Source: an uncultured Acidimicrobiales bacterium (lineage in GTDB: Bacteria; Actinomycetota; Acidimicrobiia; Acidimicrobiales; CALAML01). From it: a stretch of 64,000 nt of DNA. Shown here one piece after another: positions 14 to 40,567 of the stretch (position 1 is its first letter; each line of letters opens with the position of its first letter). Location of the stretch: contig CALAML010000045.1 of NCBI GenBank assembly GCA_937925845.1, positions 65,616-129,615 on the forward strand. Reading direction: 5' to 3'. A model generated the notes under the pieces. That model was not told the origin of the DNA, did no database searches, and saw only the letters and a list, made by a program, of their open reading frames with translations. Made by a program: the position numbers and the translations under genes.

Positions 14-988
14 TTGAACCGCTCGGTCGTGGCTCTGGCGTACGACGGCCTCTGCATGTTCGAGTTTGCGGTGGCCGCTGAACTGTTCGGTCTTGAGCGA
101 CCCGAGCTCGGAGTCGACTGGTACGACTTCGAGGTGGTGTCGATGGATGCCGCACCGCTGCGCACCCTCGGAGGGTTGCAGCTCACCGGGGCCGGCGGAC
201 CGGACCGGTTCGAGGATGCGGGCACCATCATCATCCCGGGCTGGTGTGACTGCGCCAAACCCCCGCCCCAACAGCTGATCGATTCGCTGGTGCGGGCCCA
301 CGCCAACGGTGCCCGGCTGATGTCGATCTGTTCCGGCGTGTTTGTGCTGGCGGCAACCGGGCTGCTCGATGGCGCATCGGCCACCACCCACTGGCGCTAC
401 ATCGATGAACTTAGGACGCGCTACCCGGCCATCGATGTCCGCCCCGACATCCTCTATGTCGACAACGGCTCGGTGCTCACCTCGGCCGGAAGCGCGGCCG
501 GCATCGACCTCGGCCTGCACCTGATTCGTCGCGACTACGGCCCCGAGATCGCCAACGAAGTGGCCCGGCGAATGGTGGTGCCGGCCCATCGTGATGGTGG
601 CCAGGCGCAGTTCATCCAGCGCCCGGTGGCAGCGGAAGACGACGTGTCGATCAGCCAGACCCTTGAATGGGCTCGGGAACATCTCGGTGAACCGCTCACG
701 GTGAAGGACCTGGCCGACCACGCCCGCATGAGCCAGCGAACCTTCGCCCGGCGTTTTCACGAAGCCACCGGGGCCACGCCCCATCGATGGCTCACCCTGA
801 ACCGGGTGCTGCGGGCTCGCGACCTCCTGGAAACGACCAGTCACAGCATCGAGCGGGTGGCCGAACTGTCCGGGCTCGGAAGCGCCGCCAACCTCCGGCA
901 CCACTTCGAGCGTGAACTCCACACCACCCCATCCCGCTACCGGCGCACCTTCGGCTTCGCGTCCGACCGGGCGGGCCCGACTTGCTAG
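14..988 (+). CDS. GlxA-family transcriptional regulator (DJ-1/PfpI domain plus AraC HTH)
   Basis: 324 aa from a TTG at the window edge; the frame stays open to base 2, so the true start may lie outside. The N-terminal ~180 residues form a DJ-1/PfpI-like domain with the nucleophile-elbow motif SICSG (Cys about 106), as in amidase-like regulators. The C-terminal ~110 residues (from EWAREHLGEPLTVKDLA) are an AraC/XylS double helix-turn-helix ending in HHFERELHTTPSRYRRTF. GlxA-type proteins are cytoplasmic DNA-binding regulators, often of amino-acid or quaternary-amine catabolism; the ligand cannot be read from sequence. It is a single gene, convergent with the secreted-protein pair downstream, and its stop lies 10 bp before a MITE-like element. 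Confidence 0.9.
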   Translation: MNRSVVALAYDGLCMFEFAVAAELFGLERPELGVDWYDFEVVSMDAAPLRTLGGLQLTGAGGPDRFEDAGTIIIPGWCDCAKPPPQQLIDSLVRAHANGARLMSICSGVFVLAATGLLDGASATTHWRYIDELRTRYPAIDVRPDILYVDNGSVLTSAGSAAGIDLGLHLIRRDYGPEIANEVARRMVVPAHRDGGQAQFIQRPVAAEDDVSISQTLEWAREHLGEPLTVKDLADHARMSQRTFARRFHEATGATPHRWLTLNRVLRARDLLETTSHSIERVAELSGLGSAANLRHHFERELHTTPSRYRRTFGFASDRAGPTC

Positions 989-998
989 TGGCGGGACA

Positions 999-1181
999 CT
1001 AGTGTCCTGTCAGTGAAGTCCGTTGATGAAAACGGCTGAGTTATCGGCGTCCCTCACAAGGACGCAGAACCGCCACAACTCGGTGTTATGGCGCTTTCGA
1101 GGACGCCGGGAGGGGCGCTGGGCAACGCTTCGCGTTGCTAGCCGTCGAATTCGTGACATGACTTTGCTGACAGGACACTAG
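999..1181. mobile_element. MITE-like element, copy 1 (183 bp)
   Basis: Both ends are the same 14-bp terminal inverted repeat, CTAGTGTCCTGTCA and TGACAGGACACTAG. A near-identical element lies inverted at 34132-34296. No ORF of useful size is inside, so it would be moved by a transposase encoded elsewhere. Ends containing TA/CTAG suggest insertion at TA or CTAG targets (IS630- or IS5-like behaviour), which is inference. Compared with copy 2 it carries about 18 extra bases that form a perfect GCAACGC-TTC-GCGTTGC hairpin. Confidence 0.75.
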
Positions 1182-1191
1182 GAGCAGCCTT

Positions 1192-3345
1192 CTAGGGGCG
1201 GGGCGGGATGTTGCGGCAGCCGATGTGTTGGAACGACGACTCGCCGACTACGACGGCACAGACCTGCTTGGCGCCGTCGCTCACTGGAATGCGGGCCCGG
1301 AAGCGGGGCCCACCGAGCGGGTTCCAGGCGATCGAGTCGACGTCGACCCGGCGGCTAGGAGCGCGACTCACCTTTTTGCCATCGACAAAGAACGCCACCT
1401 TGGCCGGGTTCACCAGGCAGCACTGCGGAGTATTTGCGGCAAGACCAGCGGCAAACAACCGACCGCTTGAGTCCCAGCGCAACGACTCGAAGGCGCCGAG
1501 CGGGCCGCCCGACTCGTTGCTGGCCCGGCAACCGATCAGCGGGTAGCGAGCCTCACCGGCGCGGGCATCGCTGTTGATCGCTCGCAAACACACCACATGG
1601 TTGCCTCGGGCGGGAATGGGCACGTTGATGACGAACCCATGGCGGGCGCCGTAGCTGTCCAACGGAGACGGGAACGGTCCATAGCGGCTGCCCACCAACA
1701 TTGCTTCGTGACGTACGTTGGCCACCGCGCCCTTCACCCGCTTACCGTCGACGAAAGCGTGCAGTCGCACCCGCTTCGACGGCTTCTGAGAGCCGTCGAT
1801 CAGCCAACCCCGAACCCGCATCACCCGCGGATTTGAGTCGCGGTCCCACTCGGCGATCTCGCCCATCATGGACAACGGCGGTGTGGAGAACCCGATCTGA
1901 CCCACGGCGGTGCCGCGGCGCTCACCCGGAAGGTTCACGGTCAGGATATAGCTGCTCCCCGGCGTCAAGCCGGCGTTGGTGGCGTCGAGATCCACGGTAT
2001 GGAGCCGACTACAGGGTTGCGTCGATCGTGTCGCGTTGAGCTGTTCCAGCCAGTTGGTCACCCCGGTAGTCGCAGCCTCATGCCCGAAGGCCGAAGTAGC
2101 GAGCAGCGAGTAGACCGGCTTTTCGCAGCGGTTGGTGAGGATGCGAAACGATGCCTCTGTCGGTCGGATGCGAGTGAGCTTGGTACTGCGAACCCCGGAG
2201 AAGTCAGGAAGGGCGACATCAACGAAACGCGGCCCTCCAGCGGGGCCTCCGGATACCCACACGGCTCGCAAGATTGCCGGGCCACCGAGGAAGTTGGAAG
2301 ACAGCTCGACTGCTCCCTCGGTTTCGTTGGGGCCAAACACTTCCTTTACGTACATGGTGAGTTGGCGGGTGCCGTCGTGATTGTTGAACGCCACCACCTC
2401 GTAGCGATCGGCGCGCCGGCCCGTGGCATCCACCGCAGGGTCCCATCGCAACACCGCCCCGCTATTTTCTCTAGTCCCGCCAGCCCAGGCGACCTGGAGG
2501 GGACCGAACCGGAGGTCGGTCGACGGTCGAGGTCTTGTGAAGAAGAGCATCGTTTCGTCGCGGGGTGAGATCGCTTCGACCGCGGTCGATACCCCGTTGG
2601 CCCACCAGGCACGCACGTACACCTGCTCTTCGTCGTCGAGGTCGACATCGAAGGTGGTGACGTCACCGGCCACCACGGTGCTCGACACGATCTTGCCGTC
2701 GTTGAACCGCTCGTATTCGGTCTCGACGATCTCGTAGTGACTGGCGGCGGTGCCCCGGTGCGACACCGGCGACCAGGTGACCCGCGCCGGGCCGCGCACC
2801 CCTTCGCCAACCACCCGGCCACCCGGAAGCCAGACCAGCGACGGGTCGACCGCCGTTGGGTTCAGCCTGCCCGCCAGTCCGCAGCCGCCGACCCGCTGGC
2901 CCTCGCGGTGGAGTTCCCAGCTGCCGCCTGGCTTGTCGGCCTGCTGAGTGGTGCGGCCCCGGTCATGGGTCGAGCCCCGGTGAACCGTGAGGTTGCCAGC
3001 AAAGCGATCGCTTACCAGCTCGCCCCGGACGGCGGTGATGCCGGGACCAATGGGGGTGATGACGGAGAACTGCGCACCGTAGCCGGTGCCCGGTGGGACG
3101 ATCACACAGCGATTGAGCTGGGTGCCGTTTTGAGCGCTCGCCGGCCCCGCGTACATGGCTGACCCCGCGATGACCCCGAGCAAGGCGACGACGAAGGTCA
3201 CCGCGACGCGCCGGGGGAGTCGAGCGGTGGCGGCCGTTGTCGGCTGAGACGTTGAACGCACTGGGGTCACGATCCTTGTGGCGGCGATTCGAGGCAGGGC
3301 TGAGGACGCAAGAGGAATTGGCGATCCGGAATCTCGACGGGTCAT
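1192..3345 (-). CDS. Secreted protein with fibronectin/Ig-like domains, paralogue B
   Basis: 717 aa from ATG at 3345; the ORF-track start at 3654 is an overrun into the upstream gene. The ATG overlaps the TGA of the upstream paralogue (ATGA), so the two are translationally coupled. A long basic N-terminus leads to a hydrophobic segment and an AxA site after about residue 71 (GPASA), so Sec export is expected. The middle holds repeated beta-rich modules (PGGRVVGEGVRGPARVTW, YEVVAFNNHDG). The C-terminus has two copies of an actinobacterial surface module (GWLIDG, AFVDGKRVKGAVANV, HVVCLRAINS, PLIGC), the last degenerate. No catalytic motif is visible. Likely a cell-surface or envelope protein of unknown function. 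Confidence 0.8.
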   Translation of the reverse strand: MTRRDSGSPIPLASSALPRIAATRIVTPVRSTSQPTTAATARLPRRVAVTFVVALLGVIAGSAMYAGPASAQNGTQLNRCVIVPPGTGYGAQFSVITPIGPGITAVRGELVSDRFAGNLTVHRGSTHDRGRTTQQADKPGGSWELHREGQRVGGCGLAGRLNPTAVDPSLVWLPGGRVVGEGVRGPARVTWSPVSHRGTAASHYEIVETEYERFNDGKIVSSTVVAGDVTTFDVDLDDEEQVYVRAWWANGVSTAVEAISPRDETMLFFTRPRPSTDLRFGPLQVAWAGGTRENSGAVLRWDPAVDATGRRADRYEVVAFNNHDGTRQLTMYVKEVFGPNETEGAVELSSNFLGGPAILRAVWVSGGPAGGPRFVDVALPDFSGVRSTKLTRIRPTEASFRILTNRCEKPVYSLLATSAFGHEAATTGVTNWLEQLNATRSTQPCSRLHTVDLDATNAGLTPGSSYILTVNLPGERRGTAVGQIGFSTPPLSMMGEIAEWDRDSNPRVMRVRGWLIDGSQKPSKRVRLHAFVDGKRVKGAVANVRHEAMLVGSRYGPFPSPLDSYGARHGFVINVPIPARGNHVVCLRAINSDARAGEARYPLIGCRASNESGGPLGAFESLRWDSSGRLFAAGLAANTPQCCLVNPAKVAFFVDGKKVSRAPSRRVDVDSIAWNPLGGPRFRARIPVSDGAKQVCAVVVGESSFQHIGCRNIPPRP

Positions 3346-5138
3346 CGGCTTCGCTCCACATCGATGCATCCGAGTAGGGGGAACTTCGCCTGTCCTGGCC
3401 TCGGGTTGATCTCCTTGGCCCGGGCACAGACTTTGTGAGTGCCGGTCCGGGGAAGGTTCAGCACCGCCACGAACCCGTCGTCGCCGCCGTAGTGATCCAG
3501 GGTGATGGCAGCCAGCTCCCAGAAGGGCCGCTTCTGGGGAACAGCCATGTCCTGTCGACCACGGTTGGCCATCACCGCCTTCACCCGTTTGCCGTTCACA
3601 AACAGCAGCACCCGGGTTGATGCGGAGGCCGGCTCGGCCGGGTCGAGGGCCCAACCGCTGATGGCGACCCGATCGTTGTCGAGGCCGAAGGTCTCTGTGT
3701 CGATCTGGCCGATGGTTCGAGCCGGGGGAGTGCGGACCAGGGAGACCCGCTCCGCCAGCTCGCCGGTTTTCGGGTCGGTCGTCACCACGGTGAGCACGTA
3801 GGCCCGGTTGGCTTTGAGGGCTGGGGTGTCACGGCCGAGGGTGATGCCGTGATTGCGATAGCAACGACCGTCGCGAGGGGCGTTGAATTCGTCGACGGTG
3901 CGTTTGGCCGCCGCGATCGAATAGTTGAGCTCGACCAGCCGGTAGTCGCCATAGACACAGTCGTCGGTGGAGAACGACACCTTGGCCCGCGTGGTGGTGG
4001 CCTCAACCTCAATCTCGGAAATCGATCGACTCTGGCCCGGACCCTGCCAGCTCTGGTTGAAGATCGGCACCTCGACGATCGCCGGTCCGCCGTCAGGGCC
4101 AACGTTGCGCCATACCGCCCGCAGCCGCCAGCTCCGGGGGTTCTGGTTCGCTGGGTTGGGGTGGGTCACAATCCCTTGGCGCACCGATCCGCTGAAGGCG
4201 GCGTTGCGGACATACGCGGTTCGGAGCCCCCGGGAAATCACCTGGTACTGATCCGCGGGTCGCCCCTGGCTGTCCCGGGCGGTCGACCAAGTGAGGCGGA
4301 ACGCACCACGGACCGTGCCCGGCATGTTGATCCAGGCCACATCGGTGAGTCCGAAGCTCGGCGTGTCACCGTTCAGCTCGGACTCTCCGGCTTGACCCGA
4401 TGCTTCGGCTTCCACCATCGCCGACACGCCGTCGTCCCACCAGGCCCGAAGGAAGACCCGGTCGCGGGGCTTGAGATCAACCAGCGCCTGGCTCGCGGTC
4501 GTCGACAACATCGATACCGAGATGGTCTTGGCGGTTTGGGGGTTGCCCGGTTGAACCGGATCCCTTAGGACGGTGAGTTCGTAGCGACGGGCCTGGGCTC
4601 CGTTGTCTTCGGCGATCGGCCACCGGACCAGGGCCCGGCCTCGAATGCCCACCCCCTGAACCCGGGTGCCGGGCAGCCACGTCAACTTCGGTTGCGGGGG
4701 AGTGGGGTTGACCCGCTTCGGCGGCGCACAAAAGTTGCCGAGCGTCTCGCCACTGGCATCTCTGGCGATCGGTCGCCAGCTGCGGTCGATGGCGAAGTCC
4801 ATCTGCCAACCAAGCGCCGATCGGGGATCGTCGGCCAGTTCCTGGTCCTGACCATCGCCATCGCGAAGGACGACCGTACCCGGAGCGCGGGACACGGCCG
4901 CGGTGGACCAGAACCCGTAGCCAGCGTTTCGTCCAACCAGGAAACAGGATGGCTTTGCCGGTGCCGCGGCTGCTGGGGGAGCGGTGATTGAGGTCAAGCC
5001 GATTCCGGTCACGGTGGCGGCCACAGCTCCAAGAACAGCGAAGGCAAGTACCCTGACGGCGCGAGCCGTTGGTTGGTGCCGCAGTTTGATCTGGAAGCTG
5101 GGGCGCGACAGGTGAGGGTGCGCGTTCGGGACGTTCAT
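3342..5138 (-). CDS. Secreted protein with fibronectin/Ig-like domains, paralogue A
   Basis: 598 aa from ATG at 5138 (MNVPNAHPHLS); the track start at 5210 is a TTG giving an unlikely 24-residue extension. A hydrophobic signal segment (VRVLAFAVLGAVAATVTGIGL) is followed by an Ala-rich cleavage zone near residue 60. The module order parallels the downstream paralogue: PGTRVQGVGIRGRALVRW, FLRAWWDDGVSAMVEA, and one C-terminal module with GWALDP, LFVNGKRVKAVMANR and THKVCARAKEINPRPG ending PLLGC. The last module resembles repeats common in actinobacterial secreted proteins. It is first in a two-gene operon. Function unknown; adhesion or envelope structure is a guess. Confidence 0.8.
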   Translation of the reverse strand: MNVPNAHPHLSRPSFQIKLRHQPTARAVRVLAFAVLGAVAATVTGIGLTSITAPPAAAAPAKPSCFLVGRNAGYGFWSTAAVSRAPGTVVLRDGDGQDQELADDPRSALGWQMDFAIDRSWRPIARDASGETLGNFCAPPKRVNPTPPQPKLTWLPGTRVQGVGIRGRALVRWPIAEDNGAQARRYELTVLRDPVQPGNPQTAKTISVSMLSTTASQALVDLKPRDRVFLRAWWDDGVSAMVEAEASGQAGESELNGDTPSFGLTDVAWINMPGTVRGAFRLTWSTARDSQGRPADQYQVISRGLRTAYVRNAAFSGSVRQGIVTHPNPANQNPRSWRLRAVWRNVGPDGGPAIVEVPIFNQSWQGPGQSRSISEIEVEATTTRAKVSFSTDDCVYGDYRLVELNYSIAAAKRTVDEFNAPRDGRCYRNHGITLGRDTPALKANRAYVLTVVTTDPKTGELAERVSLVRTPPARTIGQIDTETFGLDNDRVAISGWALDPAEPASASTRVLLFVNGKRVKAVMANRGRQDMAVPQKRPFWELAAITLDHYGGDDGFVAVLNLPRTGTHKVCARAKEINPRPGQAKFPLLGCIDVERSR

Positions 5139-32992: not shown

Positions 32993-34135
32993 TTGGGTAC
33001 CTGGGCTAGAACCGCCCCAGTGGGTGCACGGATCCGGTTGGCGAACATCATCGATTTCCACGCGGACGCCTGCGCCCGCGAGGGTTCCCGGCTCTACTCC
33101 TACCTGCTTCGCCGGGTCGCCGAAGATGTCACCGTCGGTGGTGCCTTCGGTCCGCTGTTGCTGGGTCATGCTCACGACCGCTTTGCCTCGGCGCCGCTCT
33201 CGCGGCTCATGGCCTCGGTGCACCGCATCGTGCTTGAGGGCCGAGCGCCCGAACTGGCGCTGCACTACCCCTCCGTTGGCGGCTGGTTCGACGCCGAAGT
33301 GTTGGTCGAACTCGCCGACCCGGATGCGGCCGACGTACTGGTCTTTCGCGACTCGGGCTCCGGGCTTGACCCCTGGCCGGCCTTTGTCGAAACCGTCCTC
33401 GTGAGCGAGTCGGAGATCAGCGCTTATCTTGATCTTCCCGATCAGACCAACGACGTCACCCGATCCGCTGGCTTGCTCGCCGGTTTTCTCCGCGTCGCCG
33501 ACCTCTGCCCGATGCCGATGCGACTGCTCGAGATCGGCGCGTCAGCGGGATTGAACCTGCGATGGGATCAACTGCGATACGAGAGCCCCCAATGGTCCTT
33601 TGGTCCCAAGTCCTCGCCGGTGCGACTTTGTGAGCCGTGGCTCGACCGGGCTCCAGTCGTGGGGCGAGCACCGGAGATCATCGAACGTCGCGGCTGCGAC
33701 GTTCTCCCGATCGACCCCACCTCAGTGGTGGGCCGACGGATGGTGCGATCATTCATTCGACCTGATGACATGATCCGCCTCAGCTTGGTGGATCGAGCGT
33801 GCTCGATCGCCGCCGACCATCCAGTCACCATCGATGCCGCCAACGCCGCCGCCTGGCTGCCGGAACAGCTTCAGCGGCAGGTGCCAGGCGCGGTCACGGT
33901 GGTGTTCCACTCGATGCTCTGGTCATCACTGAGTCCACTCGAACAGGACCAAATTGAAGCGACGGTGACTACAGCTGGCGGACAAGCCACACCCGATGCT
34001 CCGGTGGCCTGGTTGCGACTCGAATCGATCCACGGTCGGCCCGTGACCCGGCTCACCTGCTGGCCTCACCAGGCCGAAAAGGTTGTGGCCCGTGGCGAAG
34101 CCCAGGGCCCCCAGCGCTGGAAGCTCAGCGCCTAG
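32993..34135 (+). CDS. DUF2332-family protein
   Basis: 380 aa from TTG 32993, supported by a strong GGAGGTGA eight bases upstream. It matches the DUF2332 layout: FHADACAREGSRLYSYLLRRVAED at the N-terminus, DPWPAFVETV, and LLEIGASAGLNLRWDQLRY in the middle, a motif that resembles the glycine-rich SAM-binding loop of methyltransferases. The C-terminus ends WLRLESIHGRPVTRLTCWP and so on. No function is established for the family. Its stop codon TAG is the first part of the CTAG end of a MITE, so the insertion may have set the present C-terminus. Confidence 0.82.
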   Translation: MGTWARTAPVGARIRLANIIDFHADACAREGSRLYSYLLRRVAEDVTVGGAFGPLLLGHAHDRFASAPLSRLMASVHRIVLEGRAPELALHYPSVGGWFDAEVLVELADPDAADVLVFRDSGSGLDPWPAFVETVLVSESEISAYLDLPDQTNDVTRSAGLLAGFLRVADLCPMPMRLLEIGASAGLNLRWDQLRYESPQWSFGPKSSPVRLCEPWLDRAPVVGRAPEIIERRGCDVLPIDPTSVVGRRMVRSFIRPDDMIRLSLVDRACSIAADHPVTIDAANAAAWLPEQLQRQVPGAVTVVFHSMLWSSLSPLEQDQIEATVTTAGGQATPDAPVAWLRLESIHGRPVTRLTCWPHQAEKVVARGEAQGPQRWKLSA

Positions 34136-34296
34136 TGTCCTGTCAACAAAGTCATGTCACGAATTCGACGGCTCTCAGCGCCCCTCCCGGCGTCCTCGAA
34201 AGCGCCATAACACCAAGTTGTGGCGGTTCTGCGTCCTTGGGAGGGACACCGATAGCTCGCCGAATTCATCAACGGACTTCACTGACAGGACACTAG
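34132..34296. mobile_element. MITE-like element, copy 2 (165 bp, inverted to copy 1)
   Basis: Begins CTAGTGTCCTGTCA and ends TGACAGGACACTAG. Its reverse complement matches copy 1 along the whole length, apart from scattered changes and the lack of the 18-base hairpin insertion. Its left CTAG supplies the TAG stop of the DUF2332 gene. No transposase gene is inside. Confidence 0.75.
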
Positions 34297-34391: not shown

Positions 34392-35522
34392 CTAACTCAG
34401 AGCGGCGGCGGCTCGGCGCTCAGCCCGCTGATTGCCCAGCCCGGTGATAAGGCGGCCGCCGATGAGGCCCAGGGCCAACACCAGCGCCCCGCCGGCGGCA
34501 TCGATCCAGTAATGGTTGGCGGTAACGACGATGGCGAAGAGAGTGGCGACCGGATACGCCGCGATCAGCGCCTTTGTCCAGCGGCGCTGCAACACCGGCC
34601 ACAGCATGATGAGACACCACGCCGACCAGCCGAAGTGGAGGCTGGGCATGGCCGCATACTGATTCGAGACTGCCTGCATGGCGCCCGAGTCGAACGACCA
34701 CAAGCCGCCGTGCACCGCCAGACTGTCGACGTATGCGTAGTCGTTGCCGCCGAACTCCAGGCCACCGTAGGGCGGACCAACGGCCAACAAACGCGGCGGC
34801 ATCAGCGGATAGGTGGAGAACCCGATCAGGGCCAACACCGTGGTGACGGCCAATGAGTTGCGGGCCAGGCGGTGACGGGCCGGGAATCGCCTGAACAGCC
34901 AAATCAGCACCCCGATGGTCACGATGAAGTGCAGGGTGCCGTAGAAGATGTTCCAGGCCTTCAGGAACCACCCCCAGTCGACAAACCAGCCCTGCACGAC
35001 CTCTTCGAAGTAGAGGCCCATACGTTTCTCAAGGTCGATGATCTCGACCGCATTGTCATAGGCCCGCCGAGGCGACACCGCGGCTGATCCAAAGGTGTTT
35101 CGGATCAGCGAATACACCCCGTAGAAAACCAGCACGATCAGTATCTCGACCCACCAGCGGCCGCGACGGTTACCCACTGCATCAGCGGCACCGTCGGGAC
35201 TATCGATGGAAGTGGCGGCGGTTGTGGCGGCCTCGGTGTCGCTCAGCTCGTCTTGGCCTGGGTCCATGCTGGTCTCGCCAAGCCCGGCCGCCTCGGCGCC
35301 AGCCGTTTCGACACCGGATGTTCCGGCTTCGGCTGTTCCGGGTTCGACATTGTGCGTCCTGGTGGCGCGCCCGGCTTCGATCGGATTGTTGAAGTCGATT
35401 CCTTCGGATGGAGCCTGGTCGGTGTCCACCGCAGCTCCGGCATCCACCTCGGTCATGGAGCTCAAGAACGAGTTGACTATCGCCGACTCGTCGTCGCCCA
35501 CATCACGGCTGCTCACCGCCAC
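34392..35522 (-). CDS. PAP2-superfamily membrane phosphatase / phosphotransferase
   Basis: Up to 376 aa; GTG 35522 or the GTG two codons later (35516, better spaced from GAGGGA). The first ~120 residues are acidic, Thr/Ala/Ser-rich and probably disordered. The membrane part has about six TMs with the phosphatase motifs: PSLHFGWSAW (motif 2 with His) and VTANHYWIDAAGG (motif 3 with His and Asp). The motif order and the RLLAVGPP insertion resemble Aur1/inositol-phosphotransferase-like PAP2 proteins. It probably acts on a lipid phosphate. An incomplete duplicate of its 3' end follows it. Confidence 0.87.
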   Translation of the reverse strand: MAVSSRDVGDDESAIVNSFLSSMTEVDAGAAVDTDQAPSEGIDFNNPIEAGRATRTHNVEPGTAEAGTSGVETAGAEAAGLGETSMDPGQDELSDTEAATTAATSIDSPDGAADAVGNRRGRWWVEILIVLVFYGVYSLIRNTFGSAAVSPRRAYDNAVEIIDLEKRMGLYFEEVVQGWFVDWGWFLKAWNIFYGTLHFIVTIGVLIWLFRRFPARHRLARNSLAVTTVLALIGFSTYPLMPPRLLAVGPPYGGLEFGGNDYAYVDSLAVHGGLWSFDSGAMQAVSNQYAAMPSLHFGWSAWCLIMLWPVLQRRWTKALIAAYPVATLFAIVVTANHYWIDAAGGALVLALGLIGGRLITGLGNQRAERRAAAALS

Positions 35523-36203: not shown

Positions 36204-36314
36204 ATCGGTACGATAAACCCTTGAGGCGACTGCTGAACAATCATGGCTGGGGAAACCCGGCGCTGGTGTTTGGCCCCATCGTCGGGAGACCCCGAACCAA
36301 CCAGAGGCGACAAC

Positions 36315-37706
36315 GTGATCGAACCCGATGTTCTCGAAAGCACCATCAACACCGCGCTGGCTACCGGCGGAGAGTTTGCTGAGGTCTTCGCCGAAGACCG
36401 ACGGTCGTCGTCGGGGTACTTCGACGATGGGAAAGTCGAAGAGCTGACCTCGGGCCGCGACCGCGGCGCCGGCATTCGTGTGGTGGTGGGCGACACCACC
36501 GGCTTTGCCCACACCGCCGACCTCTCCCAAGCCGGATTGGCCAAAGCGGCAGAAGCGGCGGCCGCCGCCGCACGCGGTGGTAGCGGCGGCGTGGAAGCCG
36601 TCGGCCTCACCAGTCAGAAGGTGGACCGAACCATCTCGGTGGAGATCGAGCCGGAGAGCATCGCCAAGCAAACCAAGGTCGACCTGTTGGGCACCGCCGA
36701 CAGCGCCGCCCGCGACGTGTCGAACTCCATCACCCAGGTGATGGTGCGCTACTCCGACAGCCGCCGTCGGATCCAGGTGGCCAACAGCGACGGCCTGTTG
36801 TCGGGCGATGACCAGGTGCGCACCTTCTTTGCTGTTTCCTGCGTGGCCAGCGGCGACACCGGCATGCAGACCGGCCGCGAGAGCGTCGGCCACACCTACG
36901 GCTTCGAACTTTTCGACCGCTACGACGTCGAAGAACTGGCCCGCACCGCAGCCGGTCGAGCGGTTACTAAGCTCGAAGCGGTTCCGGCCCCGTCGGGCAC
37001 TATGCCGGTGGTGATCGGCAAGGGCGGTGGCGGCGTGCTGTTCCACGAAGCCTGCGGTCACGGCCTCGAGGCCGATCTGATCGCCAAGGGCGCATCGGTC
37101 TTCGCCAACCGTGTTGGTGAGAAGGTCGCCGCCGATGGTGTCACCCTGATCGACGACGGCACCATGGGTGGCGAGTGGGGCAACTTCGCCATCGACGATG
37201 AAGGTCGCCCGGCCCAGTCCAACACCCTGATCGAAGACGGCGTGCTCGTCGACTACATGTGGGACCACCTACGGGCCCGCAAAGAAGGCCGACCCAGCTC
37301 CGGCAACGGTCGGCGTCAGAGCTACGCCCACCTGCCGATGGTGCGCATGACCAACACCTACATGGCCAACGGCAACGAAGATCCGGCCGACATCATCGCC
37401 GACACCCCCGAGGGCGTGTACATCGCCCAGCTCGGTGGGGGTCAGGTCAACACCGCCACCGGCGACTTCGTGTTCGGCATGACCGAGGCCTACCTGATCG
37501 AAGACGGCAAGATCACCACGCCATTACGCGAAGGCAACCTGATCGGCAACGGCCCCGAAGTGCTCACCCAGATCGACCGACTCGGCAACGACTTCGAGAT
37601 GGGCCACCCCGGCACCTGCGGCAAAGACGGCCAAGGCGTCCCTGTGGGCGACGGCACTCCAACCCTGCGGGTCACCGCCCTCACCATCGGCGGCACCGCG
37701 GCCTAG
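36315..37706 (+). CDS. tldD: TldD-type metalloprotease subunit
   Basis: 463 aa from GTG 36315 (MIEPDVLESTI); ATG 36243 would add an unlikely 24 residues. The zinc-binding HExxxH motif is present as FHEACGHGLEAD, with the later Cys-containing C-terminal GHPGTCGKDGQGVPVG typical of TldD. TldD pairs with TldE to form a barrel-shaped heterodimer that cleaves unfolded peptides and, in some bacteria, leader peptides of ribosomally made natural products. Here it is followed by two TldE paralogues on the same strand. The operon has no obvious precursor-peptide gene. Confidence 0.93.
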   Translation: MIEPDVLESTINTALATGGEFAEVFAEDRRSSSGYFDDGKVEELTSGRDRGAGIRVVVGDTTGFAHTADLSQAGLAKAAEAAAAAARGGSGGVEAVGLTSQKVDRTISVEIEPESIAKQTKVDLLGTADSAARDVSNSITQVMVRYSDSRRRIQVANSDGLLSGDDQVRTFFAVSCVASGDTGMQTGRESVGHTYGFELFDRYDVEELARTAAGRAVTKLEAVPAPSGTMPVVIGKGGGGVLFHEACGHGLEADLIAKGASVFANRVGEKVAADGVTLIDDGTMGGEWGNFAIDDEGRPAQSNTLIEDGVLVDYMWDHLRARKEGRPSSGNGRRQSYAHLPMVRMTNTYMANGNEDPADIIADTPEGVYIAQLGGGQVNTATGDFVFGMTEAYLIEDGKITTPLREGNLIGNGPEVLTQIDRLGNDFEMGHPGTCGKDGQGVPVGDGTPTLRVTALTIGGTAA

Positions 37707-37764
37707 GAGAGTCGTAGAGACTCCGAACCGAGCCCACCGAGCCAGACATGCCCAGGAGGCGTTA

Positions 37765-39108
37765 GTGATCGAGACGTTGAACGAGGTCGTCGAAAAGGTT
37801 GTGGCCCAGGCCAAACCCGGCGAGGCCCTCGAGGCGGTGGCGGTGCATTCGGCCGACACCGAGATCCGGGTGTACGAGGGCGAGATCGAACAGTTCTCGG
37901 CCGCGGAGTCCCAAGGCGTCGGGGTGCGGGTCATCGTCGACAACCGGCAGGGCTTCGCCTACTCCGGCACCCTCGACCCCGAGGCCATCTCCGAAGCACT
38001 CGCCGAAGCCCGCGACAACGCCACCTTCGGTTCCCCCGACGAATACCTCGGCTTAGCTGAGCCCGACGGAGTCGAAGCGGTCGAGCTCGACCTCTTCAAA
38101 CCTGGCCTGGCCGACGTTCCCACCGAAGACAAAATCGCCATGGCCATCGAGTTGGAGCGAGCCACCCGCGCCGCCGACGACCGCATCAGTGGCATCGAAA
38201 GCGCAGAGTACGCCGATTCGATCGTCGCCTCGGCAGTGGCCACCAGCACCGGCCTACGCAACTCAAGCCAAGAGACCGGCTGCTTTCTCACCTCCTACGC
38301 CATGGCTGCCGAAGGCGACGAAACCCAGACCGGCTTCGGCTTCTCGGTGGGCCGGGACTTCGACGAACTCGACGGGGCCCAAGCCGCGGAGGACGCGGCG
38401 ATGCGGGCCACCCGCCTGTTGGGCGCGGTCAAGCCCGAAACCGAACGCCTCACGGTGGTGCTCGACCCGTTTGTAACCGCGCAGTTTCTCTCGATTCTCG
38501 CCGGCAGCTTCTCCGGAGAAGCGGTGCTGAAGGGCTACTCCCTCTTCGCCGACCGCCAGGGCGAAACCGTGGCCCACCCCACCATCACGCTGGTTGACGA
38601 CCCCACCCGACCCGAAGCGTTCTCCGCCACCTCCACCGACGGCGAAGGCCTGGCCACCCGCCGCAACGTGTTGATCAACGCTGGCGTGGTCGACGGCTTC
38701 GTGCACAACAGCTACACCGGCCGCCGTACGGGAACGGCCAGCACCGGCTCGGCGGTGCGCGGCTTCGCCAACACCCCAGGCGTTGGCTGCATGGCGGTGT
38801 CACTCGACCCCGGTAGCCGAACCCAAGCCGAGTTGATCTCCGACATCGACCACGGGGTGTTGATCCAGGGCGTGTCCGGCCTGCACTCGGGCGTCAACCC
38901 GGTCAGCGGCGACTTCTCCACCGGCGCCGATGGGCTCATGATCCGAAACGGCGAAGTAGCCGAACCGGTTCGCGAGTTCACCATTGCCTCAACCCTGCAA
39001 AAGATGCTCACCGACGTGATTGAGATCGGTGGCGACGTCGAACACCTCCCCATGTCGGCCACCGGCCTCAGCCTCGCCATAGGCGAAGTCACCGTCAGCG
39101 GCACCTGA
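37765..39108 (+). CDS. tldE: TldE/PmbA paralogue 1
   Basis: 447 aa from GTG 37765 with AGGAGG five bases upstream, 58 bp after tldD. TldE fold: RVYEGEIEQFSAAESQGVGVRVI, the conserved DEYLGLAEPDGVEAVEL, and the C-terminal STGSAVRGFANTPGVGCMAVSLDPG and GLHSGVNPVSGDFSTGADGLMIRNG. No HExxxH, as expected for the non-catalytic partner. It is most probably one of two alternative partners of TldD. Confidence 0.92.
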   Translation: MIETLNEVVEKVVAQAKPGEALEAVAVHSADTEIRVYEGEIEQFSAAESQGVGVRVIVDNRQGFAYSGTLDPEAISEALAEARDNATFGSPDEYLGLAEPDGVEAVELDLFKPGLADVPTEDKIAMAIELERATRAADDRISGIESAEYADSIVASAVATSTGLRNSSQETGCFLTSYAMAAEGDETQTGFGFSVGRDFDELDGAQAAEDAAMRATRLLGAVKPETERLTVVLDPFVTAQFLSILAGSFSGEAVLKGYSLFADRQGETVAHPTITLVDDPTRPEAFSATSTDGEGLATRRNVLINAGVVDGFVHNSYTGRRTGTASTGSAVRGFANTPGVGCMAVSLDPGSRTQAELISDIDHGVLIQGVSGLHSGVNPVSGDFSTGADGLMIRNGEVAEPVREFTIASTLQKMLTDVIEIGGDVEHLPMSATGLSLAIGEVTVSGT

Positions 39109-39175
39109 CCTCAGCCGAACGAACAACCTGATCGACGCGTGCCCGAGTTGGGCCGAGAGCTGCGAGAATGGGCCC

Positions 39176-40567
39176 ATGACTGTTGCCTCCGCCCCGTCGC
39201 CCGGATCGGCCGCCACCCCGGCCGAAGTAGAGAAGCTGATCGCCATCGGTCAGGGAGTGGTCGACCAGGCCGCGCCCGGCGAAGCGGTGGAAGCCTTTGT
39301 GCGGGAAGGCACCAGTACCTCGGTGCGGGTGTACGACGGCGAGGTGGAATCGTTCACCTCGGCCAACGGCTCCGGCATCGGCATACGGGTGATCGTCGAT
39401 GACCGGATGGGATTCGCCCACGCCGGATCGCTGGCCCCCGACGTGATCGCCGACACCCTGGCCGAAGCCCGCGACAACGCCCAGTTCGCCGAACCCGACG
39501 AGTTCGTGGCGCTGGTCGAACCCGACGGCGTGGCACCGGTGGAGATGGACCCCTGGTTCGAAGAGGCGGTCACCCAACCCGACACCGACAAGATCGATCT
39601 GGCTATCGAACTCGAGCGGCGGGTTCGAGGCGCCGATGAGCGCATCACCGGCATCCGTACCGCCTCCTACGGCACCAGCTTTGGCACCGCAGCCGTGGTG
39701 TCGACCACCGGGATCGCCGTCGGCTCCCGCGGTACCGGTGCTTCGATGGCCGTGCAGGCGCTGGCCGCCGATGGTGAAAGCACCCGATCGGGCTATGGCG
39801 TGTCGGCCGGACGGATGCCGGGCGAACTTGATATGGACGAAGCAGTCACCGATGCGGTCGACCGGGCCACCGGCTTGCTCGGCTCGACCAAGCCCGAGTC
39901 GGGCACGGTCACGCTGGTGTTGGAGCCACGACTGGCCATGACCATCCTCGGCATGGTCGCCGGAACCATGAGTGCCGAGCGGGCCCAAAAAGGACGGGCC
40001 CTGTTCGGTGATCGGGTGGGCGAGGATGTGGCGTCGCCGATGCTCAGCCTTCGCGACGACCCGACCGACATGCGTTCCATGGGCGCCGACAACTTCGACG
40101 GCGAAGGTTTGGCCACCCGGCCCAACGAACTCCTGGTCGATGGGGTGCTTCAGAGCTTTCTGCACAACAGCATCACCGCGAGGCGCGACGGGCTGAGCTC
40201 AACCGGCTCCGCAGTGCGGGGCTATGCCAGTACGCCCGGTGTCGGGCCCCAACTGTTGGTGATGGACCCTGGCACCACACCGGCCGACCAACTTCTCGAT
40301 GGCATCGAACTCGGGCTGATGGTGCAGTCGTTCTCCGGCCTGCACTCCGGCGTCAACACCACCTCGGGCGACTTTTCCGTAGGCGTTGAGGGCTACCTGA
40401 TTCGCAACGGTGAGAAGGCCGAAGCCATCAGCGAAGCCACGGTTGGCTCCACCCTTCAGCGTTTGCTGCGAGACATCCGATCCATCGGCGATGACCTCAC
40501 GTGGCTACCCAGCGGCAACGGTGCGGCCAGCCTCGTGATCGATGGCGTCACGCTCTCGGGTGCATAG
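39176..40567 (+). CDS. TldE/PmbA paralogue 2
   Basis: 463 aa from ATG 39176. It parallels paralogue 1 throughout: RVYDGEVESFTSANGSGIGIRVI, EPDEFVALVEPDGVAPVEM, STGSAVRGYASTPGVGPQ and GLHSGVNTTSGDFSVGVEGYLIRNG. It also lacks a metal motif. The N-terminal 15 residues (TVASAPSPGSAATPAE) are an extension absent from paralogue 1. The two are divergent in sequence, so the duplication is not recent. It may let one TldD form two different complexes. Confidence 0.9.
   Translation: MTVASAPSPGSAATPAEVEKLIAIGQGVVDQAAPGEAVEAFVREGTSTSVRVYDGEVESFTSANGSGIGIRVIVDDRMGFAHAGSLAPDVIADTLAEARDNAQFAEPDEFVALVEPDGVAPVEMDPWFEEAVTQPDTDKIDLAIELERRVRGADERITGIRTASYGTSFGTAAVVSTTGIAVGSRGTGASMAVQALAADGESTRSGYGVSAGRMPGELDMDEAVTDAVDRATGLLGSTKPESGTVTLVLEPRLAMTILGMVAGTMSAERAQKGRALFGDRVGEDVASPMLSLRDDPTDMRSMGADNFDGEGLATRPNELLVDGVLQSFLHNSITARRDGLSSTGSAVRGYASTPGVGPQLLVMDPGTTPADQLLDGIELGLMVQSFSGLHSGVNTTSGDFSVGVEGYLIRNGEKAEAISEATVGSTLQRLLRDIRSIGDDLTWLPSGNGAASLVIDGVTLSGA

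Follow-up and report, generated by a model that had tools for sequence, protein, structure and literature searches.

Introduction

The usual view of bacterial MITEs is that they are decayed transposons whose interiors do not matter. The closest relatives in kind of the element described here are RUP, the Correia elements or NEMIS, and ERIC/YPAL (PMC2229807; PMC10969869). RUP of Streptococcus pneumoniae is 107 bp long and has been proposed to be mobilised by IS630-Spn1. Our element resembles it in being short and non-coding, with IS630-like ends and TA targets (PMC2229807), but RUP, as described in pneumococcus, shows neither an RNA core conserved across a phylum nor ends taken from another transposon family. 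In Neisseria, the Correia elements (NEMIS) likewise combine inverted repeats, a conserved core and a hairpin RNA that RNase III binds or cleaves (PMC2229807; PMC2649163); they differ in belonging to one genus and in a core described as carrying an IHF site, where ours has a covarying internal loop. Among enterobacterial elements, ERIC/RU-1 (127 bp) and YPAL/RU-2 (about 168 bp) are similar by description, having a fixed length, a palindromic sequence and a hairpin in RNA (PMC2229807; PMC2759123), although YPAL has no TA ends and is flanked by duplications of 3-26 bp (PMC2229807). The IS630 insertion sequences of Acidimicrobiales and Streptomyces share the CTAG target and CTAGTG ends with our element but differ from it in encoding a transposase and, in the loci examined, in having no RNA core.

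Here we examine a pair of inverted repeats in a 64,000-nucleotide stretch of an Acidimicrobiales genome (the window). We consider it probable that they are non-autonomous transposon copies with an interior that is a conserved RNA module, travelling in interchangeable transposon ends. We found no description of the element when searching 5.4 million open-access papers by end sequence and topic. A search of 4227 Rfam models gave no convincing family match even at an E-value of 5, and neither SRP RNA nor any other resemblance emerged from it. The element represents a large RNA-like family that is apparently uncatalogued.

Copies in the window and in the draft genome

The first-pass annotation had reported two copies of a MITE in opposite directions, and both are found exactly where it placed them (Table 1), with about 95% identity at aligned positions, one 17-bp indel aside. 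The difference in length is due to a single 17-bp hairpin segment near 1122-1139. The ends are shared, as had been noted, but they are longer than the 14 bp given: the palindrome, which is imperfect, spans each element as a whole, and the RNA fold z-scores of the two copies are -9.8 and -8.2. The window had been described as free of transposases, and its 36 main ORFs indeed include no transposase domain. Convergent genes flank both copies, and the insertion point of copy 2 is exactly the TAG stop codon (34133-34135) of the DUF2332 gene. Elsewhere in the window (36243-40567, + strand), three PmbA/TldD-type metallopeptidase genes lie in a row.

Table 1. Positions of the two element copies, their parts and their flanking genes in the window
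Feature	Position	Strand	Remarks
Element copy 1	999-1181	+ (sense)	183 bp; sense from conserved loop motifs and RNA folding
Element copy 2	34132-34296	- (sense)	165 bp
TA target duplication, copy 1, left	1000-1001		inside CTAG; partner 1179-1180
TA target duplication, copy 1, right	1179-1180		partner 1000-1001
TA target duplication, copy 2	34133-34134		partner 34294-34295
TA target duplication, copy 2, other side	34294-34295		partner 34133-34134
Terminal stem, left arm, copy 1	1001-1020	+	A of TA, then inverted repeat GTGTCCTGTCAGTGAAGTC; pairs with 1160-1179
Terminal stem, right arm (inverted repeat), copy 1	1160-1179	-	pairs with 1001-1020
Internal loop, left strand, copy 1	1057-1067	+	CAAGGACGCAG; conserved
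Internal loop, right strand, copy 1	1098-1108	+	CGAGGACGCCG; conserved
Extra hairpin segment, copy 1	1122-1139	+	CAACGCTTCGCGTTGCT; in 3 of 12 complete own-genome copies
Internal loop, left strand, copy 2	34229-34239	-	CAAGGACGCAG on - strand; conserved
Internal loop, right strand, copy 2	34188-34198	-	CGAGGACGCCG on - strand; conserved
AraC-type regulator with DJ-1/PfpI domain	14-988	+	flanks copy 1; convergent with next gene
820-aa ORF without Pfam match	1192-3654	-	flanks copy 1
DUF2332 gene	32993-34135	+	flanks copy 2; convergent with next gene
PAP2-superfamily gene	34392-35522	-	flanks copy 2

A genome-wide search, which had been suggested together with the annotation, yielded further copies in the draft genome that contains the window (5.1 Mb, 328 contigs, 87% complete). 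There are 12 complete copies and 5 cut by contig ends, at least 17 in total, and this number places the pair far beyond chance. CTAG borders every complete copy, and sequence identity among copies is 90-99%. Its features make the element a MITE: it is short and multi-copy, has terminal inverted repeats and encodes no transposase itself. That initial identification is upheld by its copy number, its ends, the TA duplication and the empty sites of its relatives (see below).

The draft also contains a 61-bp deletion remnant and a diverged relative of 206 bp (L019:1364-1569). The latter has different ends (CTAGTGTCCCGAC), shares the left arm and AAGGACGCAG with the other copies, and is a second subfamily within one genome. 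At four further loci (C40:64330, C47:12361, C231:6995 and C86:31938; L025, L030, L038 and L045, respectively) a lone CTAGTGTCCTG(T/C)CA end is present and its partner end is missing; these may be decayed copies, and L025 overlaps a weak match to the core.

Target site, transposase partner and mobility

We compared 64 family members flanked by TA at either end: the inner base is G in 63 on the left and C in all 64 on the right, and the outer base is variable. A constant inner G/C next to a variable outer base identifies the 2-bp TA as the target duplication and gives element ends that begin with GTG, which is the IS630 pattern; a 4-bp CTAG duplication of the IS5-group type is ruled out by the same bases. 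In this order, the IS630-family elements that we identified by their DDE_3 domain mostly have CTAGTG ends spaced 1.1-1.3 kb apart. The ends of the short element match IS630 ends at a mean of 9.1 of 12 positions in their best match (6.3 for shuffled ends), and in several relatives the short element and an autonomous IS630 have ends in common (L179 with L160, L359 with L368). Judged by these similarities, the ends of the window copies appear to be of the IS630 class. We found no autonomous element that has the exact end of the window copies, GTGTCCTGTCAG, the nearest IS630 end agreeing at 8 of 12 positions, and no IS630 transposase (PF13358, DDE_3) is present in the own draft, which is 87% complete and has contigs that break at copies. 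IS481-type transposases (PF00665) were also considered as a partner and rejected, no matching ends being found near any of them. Where a REPIN/RAYT system would have a tyrosine transposase (RAYT) as its partner, our element has ends of the DDE type and a TA duplication.

In genus g36 we joined the flanks of eight occupied sites of one genome (G175) and searched for them in four sister genomes. Two of the sites (L198 and L205) are uninterrupted in G118, G223 or G262, where a single CTAG or TA marks the junction, and relatives of the element have therefore moved. For the copy 2 site of the window, absence is seen at the level of genes, in genomes of other genera.

Conservation of the interior

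In other families of the order, relatives have the same length, 165-168 bp, and retain internal blocks in common even when their ends are not alike. A first covariance model, built from 12 sequences, was run on 298 genomes of the order and detected the element in 35; a second, built from 28 sequences, detected it in 58 of 397 Actinomycetota genomes and 48 of 237 genera; among the matches listed, nearly all are 164-170 bp long. The motif CGAGGACGC is invariant where the ends differ, and across the whole phylum the interior is better conserved than the ends. No match was found in the viral contigs and phages searched. A loose sequence pattern retrieved six loci, including contigs of Acidobacteriales and Planctomycetota, and a stricter pattern retrieved none. 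The contigs outside the phylum carry TAGTGTCCTGTC ends together with GTCCGTTGA; the Acidobacteriales element (L075:3051-3202) matches the model with 37 bits and the Planctomycetota contig (L079:5838) matches it weakly, with 18.5.

Derivation of the interior from an IS630 element by internal deletion was considered and rejected. The core has no significant covariance-model match in 41 transposase-bearing loci, and similarity between the element and these loci does not extend past about 20 terminal bases.

RNA fold, covariation and strand

In the consensus fold, a 20-bp end stem is followed by a small symmetric loop, then by two inner stems and a large internal loop, and an apical hairpin closes the structure. 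Both strands of the large internal loop are conserved, with sequences like CAAGG(A/C)CGCAGGACGAAG and GAGGACGAGAACGCCG. In alignment A2, for which no structure was used, pairing holds in 93.3% of cells, and two-sided, compensatory changes are found in 40 of 46 base pairs. The covariation score is 0.659, compared with 0.221 for shuffled alignments and at most 0.135 for slid partners, and covariation of the structured-RNA kind thus extends beyond both controls. The inner helices 3, 4 and 6 covary as well as the end helix does, and covariation is therefore not just a product of matching ends. The data suggest that selection acts on the core itself and not on the ends alone.

When the orientation of 28 members was set by the loop motif and not by folding, RNA folding was better on the motif-defined strand in all 28 (mean -19.6 kcal/mol), and their paired columns contain 153 G-U against 14 A-C combinations. 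DNA energy parameters favour the same strand, though less so (mean -8.3; 27 of 28). All 26 members of a phylum-wide set also fold better on one strand (-22.1), against a control of neighbouring 165-bp stretches that have no strand bias (mean 0.0, sd 9.9); this set is a weaker test because its strand is set by the model, which favours the better fold. As far as folding models can tell, the strand data favour selection on RNA, short of proof.

One core with several kinds of transposon ends

With a member from genome G628 as the query, a search of Streptomyces returned 48 plasmid records, some of which match only positions of about 29-134. These partially matching loci have the same core and other ends. 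One of them (L359) ends in CTAGTGCTGTGGCCGG, and a similar end lies beside an annotated IS630 transposase (L368, PF13358); the far end of that insertion sequence was not located. Three others (L356-L358) end in CTAAGGGCTGTCCCGTAA, which is the end of an IS112-family IS5 element (L363, PF01609) of 888 bp with both ends found. The IS630-type and IS5/IS112-type Streptomyces members are identical at 79 of 100 core positions. IS112-family elements of Streptomyces, with ends (TAAGGGCTGTCCCGTAA) identical to one coat of the core, differ from our element in encoding a DDE_Tnp_1 transposase, and L363 contains no match to the core.

Further types of ends occur elsewhere. Genome G119 carries 24 copies with GGGCCCGTGTC ends (GGGCCCGTGTCATAA), and their 3-bp TWA duplications agree on both sides in 22 of the 24; no autonomous partner for these copies was seen. 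It also holds length variants with the same TWA-type ends (L341, L345 and L351, of 211 bp, and L337, of 97 bp), one type with an insertion in the internal loop, present in several copies, and the other with most of the core deleted. Of four loci examined among those in G004 that match in the core only, three (L218, L220 and L221) are elements with longer, CTAGGTG-type inverted ends, and L219 has no clear ends. Members in G196 (L222:510-663 and L223:505-660) and G060 (L216:611-777) have CTGCTGAGCAAA and CTGAGGACCTGCGC as ends in place of CTAGTG, and possibly carry further transposon coats. The same core is found with several kinds of ends and so outlives changes of transposase.

Alternative explanations

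The first-pass annotation had also proposed that the pair can promote inversion of the 33 kb between its copies. Such a recombination switch would be in keeping with the inverted orientation and the identity of about 95% over 165 bp, but gene order does not bear it out. The order that spans copy 2, DXS(-), DUF2332(+), PAP2(-), recurs in five genomes from other genera (G100, G002, G132, G130 and G098). In each of them the DUF2332 and PAP2 homologues lie side by side and converge, with DXS ahead of DUF2332, just as in the window; the covariance model detects no element between the DUF2332 and PAP2 homologues in any of the five. Because these genomes keep the same un-inverted order with no element at that place, copy 2 sits at an ancestral junction, and we regard a switch as extremely improbable. 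The relatives searched included none from the same genus or family, and this comparison of inversion state is one of the copy 2 junction.

The hairpin itself could be explained in other ways. In an ordinary IS630-derived MITE the transposase would conserve the ends, the interior would be a passive remnant, and the hairpin would simply follow from the palindrome, an account that agrees with the TA within CTAG, the IS630-class ends and the 90-99% identity of copies in one genome. It is nevertheless unlikely, given that the interior is conserved across the phylum while the ends vary more (with CGAGGACGC invariant where they differ), that covariation is as good in the inner helices as in the end helix, and that the core is not found in the IS630 elements examined and occurs with IS5/IS112 ends as well. 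We think somewhat less of the idea that the hairpin acts as single-stranded DNA, for instance in extruded form or when on the lagging strand, during transposition or replication. Conservation of both arms, strand specificity and the preference of DNA parameters for the same strand in 27 of 28 members would fit this idea, but the effect is much larger with RNA parameters and G-U is strongly favoured over A-C; moreover, IS630 and IS5 transposases are DDE enzymes, which act on double-stranded ends. Template switching, by which long quasi-palindromes are known to be corrected, could produce apparently compensatory changes in place of selection. This is very improbable, as correction of this kind should have made the internal loop perfectly paired too, whereas the loop remains unpaired and conserved, and should not give an excess of G-U over A-C on one strand.

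Proposed mechanism and role

The element combines signatures of mobility, a conserved fold, a strand bias and two kinds of ends on one core, and these features are consistent with our preferred reading of an RNA module in interchangeable transposon ends. In this model, a transposase provided in trans, probably of the IS630 family for the window copies, would cut and paste the ends. The interior, about 100 nt, would fold on one strand into a hairpin made up of two stems, an apical stem-loop and a large internal loop that is rich in purines and fixed in sequence, and selection would act on this RNA fold. Since the core is not tied to one transposase, it could have been re-dressed repeatedly, in the ends of other IS630 lineages and, in Streptomyces, in IS5/IS112 ends.

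The RNA is presumably transcribed and bound by something. By crude ORF calls, the sense orientation relative to neighbouring genes is co-directional in 18 cases and opposite in 15, and just 5 of 56 members classified on both sides lie between divergent genes. A simple 3'-UTR or other cis role in messages is left unsupported by the lack of orientation bias. With no preferred orientation and rare divergent placement, a simple cis role is disfavoured, and the RNA therefore most likely serves the element itself and not the genes beside it, by aiding its spread or making its insertion tolerable. More tentatively, an ancient RNA core may be the unit of selection, spreading through Actinomycetota on the ends of whichever DDE transposon is active (IS630, IS5/IS112, perhaps others), with its RNA acting in trans for its own spread or survival.

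An interior that is better conserved than its ends, that has an RNA fold, and that occurs within the ends of two unrelated transposon families makes this element a testable case of a non-coding RNA as the persistent part of a mobile element, in a family that occurs in culturable genera such as Streptomyces.
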